DNA of 56,391 bases from Candidatus Desulfatibia vada (GTDB lineage: Bacteria; Desulfobacterota; Desulfobacteria; Desulfobacterales; UBA11574). Position 1 is the stretch's first letter. Each line of letters begins with the position of its first letter. Location of the stretch: positions 1 through 56,391 of the forward strand of contig JACNIG010000142.1 in NCBI GenBank assembly GCA_014383215.1, read 5' to 3'. Below the pieces are notes generated by a model that did no database searches, was not told the DNA's origin, and was given only the letters and a program-made list of their open reading frames with translations. This document shows, in pieces, positions 34,782 through 53,659 of this stretch. Position numbers and translations under genes: made by a program.

Positions 34782-35849
34782 ATGAAAAAAATCGTTTTCT
34801 ATGTAATGATAATCTTTTTCCTTGCCCCGGCCGGCCTGCAGGCCGGCAAAACGGTTACGGCCAAAGGGTTGAGTTTTTTTGAACCCGGCAGAGAATTAAT
34901 CGCCCGTGAAAAAGCTTTAGATGAGGCCAAACGCTCGGCTGTCGAAAAAGCCATGGGCACTACCATCGAGTCCAGAACTGCCGTAGAAGATTTTCAGGTG
35001 GTCAAAGATCAGATAATGAGCCGTTCGGCCGGGTATCTTAAGGATATCAAAATTATTGAGGAAAACAAAACGGATCTGGGCACTTACGAGATCACGATCC
35101 AGGCAGAAGTTGAAATTCCGGACCTTGTCGACGATTTAGACCGATTCAAAAAAATTCTAAAATGGCAGAAAAACCCGCGCATAAGCGTTGTTGTCGAACC
35201 GGGCTTGAAGGCCGACTACCTGCCCACCGCCAAAAAGACGGCCAACCTGCTTATTGAGCGCTTAAAACATGACGGCTTTAAAGTTTTTAAATATTCAAAA
35301 AAAAATAAGCATCAGATGGGTCTTTTGGTCGGACTAAGTTTGGAACTCTCCACCCGCAAGACCACATTTCAGGATCTTGACCTTACCCTGAACGAGATCA
35401 GCCTCAGCACCAATATTTACCGCCCCGGGGATGAAGAAATTCTGGCCACCGCCAGTGCGGTGAAGTCCATGCCCGGAGAAAACAAACTTCAGGTTCTGGA
35501 CAAAGGTGCAAAATTCTGCATCGATAAAATCTGGGACCAACTGCGCAAGAAACTTTCCAGGCTCTGGGAAAAGGAATTGTACAGCCAAAGAGATATCTAT
35601 CTAATCGTGAAAAAAATCGCTTCACATGCCGAGGCCGAGGATATCGGCCTGATTTTCAAATCTGATGTCAGCGGCATCGTGGACGCCCAATTAATCAGTT
35701 TTCGCAAAAACAAGGCTGAATATAGCTTAAAGTATCGTGGCTGGCCCGAACAGCTGTTAAATGAAATCCAGATGGCTTATTTTAAAAACAAATATTTTGA
35801 GCCGAAGCTGGAAGCCATTCAAGGAAATAAAATCACGATAACAAAATAA
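34782..35849 (+). CDS. Exported FlgT_N/LPP20-like protein
   Basis: Signal peptide ending LQAG; REKALDEAKRSAVEKAMGTTIESRTAVEDFQVVKDQIMSRSAGYLKDIKIIEE. Confidence 0.75.
   Translation: MKKIVFYVMIIFFLAPAGLQAGKTVTAKGLSFFEPGRELIAREKALDEAKRSAVEKAMGTTIESRTAVEDFQVVKDQIMSRSAGYLKDIKIIEENKTDLGTYEITIQAEVEIPDLVDDLDRFKKILKWQKNPRISVVVEPGLKADYLPTAKKTANLLIERLKHDGFKVFKYSKKNKHQMGLLVGLSLELSTRKTTFQDLDLTLNEISLSTNIYRPGDEEILATASAVKSMPGENKLQVLDKGAKFCIDKIWDQLRKKLSRLWEKELYSQRDIYLIVKKIASHAEAEDIGLIFKSDVSGIVDAQLISFRKNKAEYSLKYRGWPEQLLNEIQMAYFKNKYFEPKLEAIQGNKITITK

Positions 35850-53659: not shown

Follow-up and report, generated by a model that had tools for sequence, protein, structure and literature searches.

Does a same-strand run of seven genes for envelope proteins, ending in a giant CHAT protein, form a single system, and if it does not, which of its genes belong together and what might they do? 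Such a run lies in the window, by which we mean the whole stretch of DNA analysed here (56,391 nucleotides of contig JACNIG010000142.1 from Candidatus Desulfatibia vada), and an earlier note had proposed all seven genes as one candidate system. The seven genes, the 3-bp gap between the TPR-CsgG and CsgG/FN3 genes, and the ATGA overlap between the ydbL-like and CHAT genes were all recovered as it had described them (Table 1), and each of the seven proteins has a hydrophobic N-terminal stretch for export or anchoring. Most of its domain labels stood as well: Pfam supports TPR and CsgG in the second product, fn3 in the third, DUF1318 in the lipoprotein, and CHAT, PD40 and TPR in the last product, and AsmA is supported through homologues. 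Two labels drew less support: FlgT_N in the first product falls below the Pfam cut-off (E 0.004) and the third product has no Pfam match to CsgG.

Table 1 Positions in the window of the seven genes, of the neighbouring module and of segments of the CHAT protein.
Feature	Position	Strand	Basis
FlgT-like gene	34782-35849	+	ORF; separate module
TPR-CsgG lipoprotein gene	35878-37890	+	ORF; separate module
CsgG/FN3 gene	37894-39882	+	ORF; separate module
Small exported protein gene	40321-40602	+	ORF; separate module
Separate neighbouring module, outside the CHAT unit	34782-40602	+	Recurs as a block elsewhere in Desulfobacterota, apart from CHAT
AsmA-like (DUF748/YhdP-type) protein, 1230 aa, predicted inner-membrane-anchored beta-groove	40721-44413	+	TM segment, homologues, model
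YdbL-like (DUF1318) lipoprotein, 193 aa, lipobox VAGC-T	44538-45119	+	Pfam DUF1318, hhalign to YdbL
Giant CHAT protein, 2847 aa, predicted to be exported	45116-53659	+	Pfam, NCBIfam, alignment of homologues
PD40/TolB-like beta-propeller, residues ~45-345	45248-46150	+	Pfam PD40 2.7e-24; NCBIfam TolB 4.4e-22
Predicted degenerate CHAT (pseudo-peptidase) region, residues 1500-1860	49613-50695	+	AlphaFold, Foldseek, VIA-align
C-terminal CHAT peptidase domain, residues 2580-2845	52853-53650	+	Pfam 2.6e-61
Predicted catalytic His2715 (ASHGEF)	53258-53260	+	Invariant in 12/12 homologues; aligned to Csx29 'CHGE' His
Predicted catalytic Cys2760 (SACQTG)	53393-53395	+	Invariant in 12/12 homologues; aligned to Csx29 'ACE' Cys

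The seven genes form two adjacent units

We searched 147 genomes of the class for the lipoprotein, fetched the neighbourhoods of the 19 matches and looked in each for counterparts of every gene in the window. Full-length orthologues of TPR-CsgG were found in 13/147 genomes, usually within a FlgT/TPR-CsgG/CsgG-FN3 block with no CHAT gene adjoining (the small gene was detected in a few). This block is an independent module that mostly lies away from CHAT; the window's genus (the window and a second genome, G148) is the only one in which it neighbours the CHAT unit. Both modules were present in only three genomes, on separate contigs in two of them (G094 and G133), and co-occurrence of the TPR-CsgG module with the lipoprotein was no better than chance (three shared genomes, Fisher p 0.38). 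Since the FlgT/CsgG genes adjoin the unit in one genus only and their overlap with it is at chance level, the supposed single system is two adjacent units; on the same distribution, no curli-type CsgG linkage to the CHAT unit was found.

The earlier note had suggested gene-order and co-occurrence surveys, and had said that CHAT homologues consistently found without the other genes would count against it. The CsgG/FlgT genes do show such separation. The AsmA and YdbL genes clearly do not, as they share their genomes with CHAT. The FlgT-like/TPR-CsgG/CsgG-FN3/small-gene block is itself a conserved outer-membrane module, apparently undescribed, with NCBIfam hints below cut-off to TraC (outer membrane exchange) and LipL46.

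The AsmA-like, DUF1318 and CHAT genes are the conserved unit

The real unit (40721-53659) consists of the AsmA-like protein, the DUF1318 lipoprotein and the giant CHAT protein, whose genes are contiguous and in the same order in about 26 genomes. To this contiguity is added a shared phyletic pattern, so the earlier note's tie between CHAT, an AsmA-like protein and a YdbL-like lipoprotein is borne out. We sampled 395 genomes of the phylum with three separate profiles, for the long DUF1318 lipoprotein (E below 1e-40), the AsmA C-terminus and the CHAT domain. The first two profiles hit exactly the same 12/395 genomes, from 10 families (G000, G012, G013, G201, G214, G235, G237, G399, G439, G450, G461 and G469). 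All 12 also encode the giant CHAT protein, which occurs in 14/395 overall; in the two extra genomes (G411 and G269) the CHAT gene is at a contig edge. Fisher p values are 4e-23 for AsmA with YdbL and 4e-21 for YdbL with CHAT, figures that ignore phylogeny and operon co-transfer. Family members are well separated by score, at 341 bits or above, from other CHAT proteins (~700-1,200 residues, at most 272 bits). G000 carries four or five other CHAT genes on contigs C131, C191, C433 and C50 (800-1,100 residues, not orthologous to the giant gene).

As operon co-transfer inflates co-occurrence, genomes in which the unit is split are the better control. CHAT is not adjacent to the pair in seven genomes (Desulfonema magnum, G036, G070, G133, G167, G555 and G235), every one of which has a full-length CHAT orthologue elsewhere; the D. 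magnum genome is a complete chromosome, and in G036 the AsmA gene is apart from the YdbL gene too. We had considered loss of CHAT from AsmA-YdbL pairs in D. magnum and others, which was rejected once the genome search placed CHAT elsewhere. The CHAT and YdbL trees agree on the main supported groups, their pairwise distances correlate (r = 0.90), and some two to four events would account for the splits. The split genomes argue against plain co-transfer, though they may stand for no more than that number of events. In G070, fragments of a second CHAT copy directly follow the full-length gene at a contig edge (L130, 11022-11401), a possible tandem duplication.

At 18/24 loci an in-frame start codon of CHAT shares bases with the ydbL stop or directly adjoins it (ATGA/GTGA or TGATG/TAATG). 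Outside the window's genus, identity to the window is 54-83% for YdbL (51% in G237). For the CHAT domain it is 60-86%, and for the AsmA protein over its full length mostly 22-30%, with 61% in the nearest genus; G201 and G235 are more distant still. The genes upstream of AsmA vary by lineage (QueC, HAD, FKBP, EamA, Lon and sensor proteins), which makes AsmA the left border of the unit. A promoter and terminator scan did not delimit the operon: terminator-like sites were near background, and promoter-like sites lay over genes on both strands.

Most other lineages have SH3 and M48 genes downstream of CHAT (~16 genomes). The SH3 protein is exported and has the motif SRSIRGLSPEA. The M48 metalloprotease has an N-terminal RR-type signal (RRxFLK/Tat-like) and matches BepA structures at 7e-20 and the M48 peptidase structure 3c37 at 2e-31. 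It thereby resembles the outer-membrane quality-control proteases BepA and LoiP, but its matches to their NCBIfam models are below the cut-offs. No such pair lies beside CHAT in the window genome, nor was a close M48 orthologue found in that genome; in D. magnum and G133 the M48 orthologue is elsewhere in the genome. Just after CHAT, at the contig end, the window has an ORF6N-domain gene and a truncated phage integrase N-terminus (54499-56116), a mobile-element remnant located where SH3-M48 lies in other lineages.

The giant CHAT protein carries an active-type and a predicted degenerate CHAT fold

From the N-terminus, the protein consists of a TolB-like propeller, TPRs, a predicted degenerate CHAT fold, further TPRs and an active-type CHAT domain. 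By its signal-like N-terminus, also seen in homologues and followed by no later transmembrane segment, it is a predicted exported protein. The C-terminal domain scores 208 bits against Pfam PF12770 (cut-off 24) and keeps the His/Cys dyad, and we class it as an active-type predicted protease. A sequence search of the PDB with CHAT found Csx29 weakly.

Residues 1500-1860 were not related to CHAT by profile-profile comparison or by Pfam, and the CHAT His/Cys motifs are absent from the alignment of homologues there. Structure prediction points to another CHAT fold here, one that lacks the catalytic residues. The AlphaFold model of this region (pLDDT 72, pTM 0.61) gave TPR-CHAT/Csx29 (E 4e-5), DdvA and separase as top Foldseek matches, and in VIA-align CHAT and separase chains took the top 25 rows (Z 12.7/12.6/12.3). 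A degenerate CHAT, of which Csx29 also has an example, is the best reading of this region.

The AsmA-like protein and the lipoprotein resemble a lipid-bridge pair

The window AsmA-like protein itself has no Pfam match; the AsmA label is right because its homologues (n=20) match DUF748 (11, best 3e-16), AsmA (8) and YhdP (6). It has an N-terminal TM segment, and its AlphaFold model (residues 31-1230, pLDDT 82, pTM 0.57) is a continuous beta-groove of ~1,200 residues. Foldseek matches to the model were mostly weak or generic. Part of it matches the N-terminal lipid-transfer domain of Atg2 (probability 0.99, E 0.04) and ApoB100 is also matched (E 2e-4 at probability 0.44); VIA-align returned mostly unrelated beta-barrels together with ApoB100 (Z 15.3, rmsd 14), and so says little more than that the model is a long beta-groove; TamB and YhdP were not prominent in it, which does not count against any reading. 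The Atg2 and ApoB100 matches are consistent with a lipid-groove type of fold, short of proof. The most conserved part of the protein is its C-terminus (ALDPYESNEAIVSQRRLLR), which would face the outer membrane.

The lipoprotein matches Pfam DUF1318 (3.8e-8), as do 15/15 homologues, and its lipobox Cys (in VAGC) and the segment that follows are invariant in these 15. Its C-terminal half is detectably homologous to E. coli YdbL (hhalign probability 82.8%, E 9e-6). Two further equivalences were tried and rejected. First, a YnbE inside the N-terminus of the lipoprotein (lipobox, then a short hydrophobic strand) is an analogy without statistical support: hhalign gave 6%, no match to YnbE was found within the lipoprotein, and only the lipobox aligns. 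Second, equating the AsmA-like protein with YdbH by sequence is unsupported (hhalign probability 4.9%).

Comparison with known systems

The closest parallel to the pair is the YdbH-YnbE-YdbL system of E. coli, an AsmA-like intermembrane bridge. In this system YdbL is reportedly a chaperone that restrains YnbE multimers, a role attributed to work by Kumar, Davis and Ruiz in 2024. The E. coli gene order is ydbH-ynbE-ydbL, and in the unit, too, an AsmA-superfamily bridge gene comes first and lipoprotein/DUF1318 gene(s) follow. The bridge protein here, predicted to be an inner-membrane-anchored beta-groove, corresponds to YdbH at the level of the superfamily, but it is larger (~1230 aa vs 879) and neither YdbH nor YnbE was matched by sequence. 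In addition, it is here the DUF1318 protein that is the lipoprotein, YnbE has no gene of its own, and a giant CHAT protease is coupled to this lipoprotein. Two papers (PMC12977461, PMC11784454) describe an interaction of YdbH with YnbE, a lipoprotein of the outer membrane.

For the protease, the nearest likeness is to Csx29, which has catalytic H615 and C658, carries a pseudo-caspase CHAT1 beside an active CHAT2, and specifically cleaves Csx30, a protein that restrains a sigma factor, at one site (PMC10028731). Both proteins combine TPRs, a (here predicted) pseudo-CHAT and an active-type CHAT in one chain, and their His/Cys positions align. However, the protein described here is predicted to be exported, has 2847 aa and a TolB-like propeller, places the pseudo-CHAT ~720 residues upstream of CHAT with TPRs between, and has envelope proteins as partners instead of Cas7-11. 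It is also no Craspase component by family model, scoring 46 bits against the Csx29 equivalog (cut-off 300), and no Cas gene is among the annotated neighbours. Separase is likewise a large repeat protein with a pseudo-peptidase and a caspase-fold peptidase, whereas the CHAT protein is bacterial, predicted to be exported and has other partners. A CHAT-like fold in an envelope protein is also known from DdvA (a transmembrane anti-sigma factor of Myxococcus, PDB 8rot), but the giant CHAT protein has no anti-sigma part.

Each component comes from a known family. In the open-access literature searched we found no relevant paper on CHAT with AsmA or on DUF1318, and no account of an AsmA/DUF1318 bridge-type pair combined with a dedicated exported pseudo-CHAT/CHAT protease, in agreement with the earlier note, which had not recognised the set as described.

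A possible protease-controlled lipid bridge

Which function would unite the three proteins? Our best reading, in which we place slightly less than even confidence, is an intermembrane lipid bridge of the YdbH-YdbL type that has its own caspase-like protease in the periplasm for regulation or quality control; the bridge plus periplasmic peptidase suggested earlier is thus retained as a candidate function. The AsmA-like protein would be anchored in the inner membrane and cross the periplasm as a groove carrying lipid, which would be phospholipid, with its conserved C-terminal end docked on the DUF1318 lipoprotein at the outer membrane. Because profile comparison recognised neither YnbE nor YdbH, the docking rests on analogy; by the same analogy, we infer that one lipoprotein chain combines the roles of YnbE (lipoprotein dock) and YdbL (chaperone). 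The CHAT protein, which would be made by translational coupling to the lipoprotein, would bind this assembly in the periplasm through its propeller and TPRs and remain inactive until faulty assembly of the bridge or lipoprotein, or stress on the envelope, sets it off. A specific cut by the C-terminal CHAT (His2715/Cys2760), to which the pseudo-CHAT would pass the signal on, would then remove or reset a bridge component, or release a signal; control would run from protease to bridge. The M48 protease may provide a second, BepA-like quality-control activity. A narrower form of this proposal, in which a separase/Csx29-like periplasmic protease is gated allosterically by its pseudo-CHAT and dedicated to cutting the AsmA-family bridge or the outer-membrane lipoprotein, is one we regard as rather doubtful.

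The main alternative is that CHAT is a sensor-protease for envelope stress, which monitors the state of the bridge or of the lipids and cleaves a signalling protein unrelated to them (e.g., an anti-sigma factor), the AsmA-DUF1318 pair being sensed and not the substrate. The precedent of the Csx30 cut (PMC10028731), the resemblance of the predicted pseudo-CHAT fold to DdvA and the sensor-like build of propeller plus TPRs all speak for it, but no conserved sigma or anti-sigma gene lies beside the unit, and we judge it unlikely, if worth keeping in view. Less probable again is a role in export or maturation, in which the AsmA-like protein would help to move not bulk phospholipid but some other cargo, such as a surface protein or a lipoprotein, and CHAT and M48 would process this cargo to maturity or clear it away. 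In most lineages the unit comes with two proteases, and its patchy spread (12/395 genomes) suggests a specialised and not an essential task; against this, there is no conserved cargo gene beside the unit, where the upstream neighbours vary between lineages.

An anti-phage or conflict system with CHAT as effector would have a parallel in CRISPR type III-E immunity, in which CHAT proteases act (PMC10028731). However, PADLOC gives only a generic TPR model and no defence-specific match, and the conserved partners are envelope-biogenesis proteins; on these two grounds a defence role is unlikely. The exported N-terminus of the homologues and a co-retention over 10 families that is steady and not island-like point the same way, leaving this reading very little credence. 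Finally, a single seven-gene system with CsgG pores, favoured by the same-strand contiguity in the window and G148, is rejected on the distribution of the FlgT/CsgG block, which elsewhere occurs without CHAT or on a separate contig. We hold such a system highly improbable; a genus-specific link would be the most that could be kept of it.

If the lipid-bridge reading is right, there may be bacteria in which a protease controls a bridge for membrane lipids. The phyletic pattern and the start-stop overlap link a pair of the bridge type with a caspase-fold protease dedicated to it, so protease control, as a part of the regulation and quality control of AsmA-family lipid bridges, becomes directly testable with this unit. 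The unit would also give CHAT proteases of the separase/Csx29-like kind a place in the bacterial envelope, and a defined partner there.

Other genes in the window

Mla genes adjoin the FlgT gene, with MlaD at 31928-32968 and MlaE at 33670-34662. The gene between them (32987-33661, minus strand) occupies the slot expected for the MlaF ATPase; its product has no Pfam ABC match and lacks the P-loop GxxxxGK[ST] and LSGGQ motifs, and it is possibly a degenerate pseudo-ATPase of the Mla operon. This trio (31928-34662) is absent in the same-genus genome G148 (L083 13836-18502), in which the FlgT module borders genes that cluster with the window's metallo-beta-lactamase and RecQ genes, a difference that reflects a local insertion or deletion. 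Elsewhere in the window, two M16 metallopeptidase genes, one of them PreP-like, lie close to each other (5910-8996 and 10668-13661).
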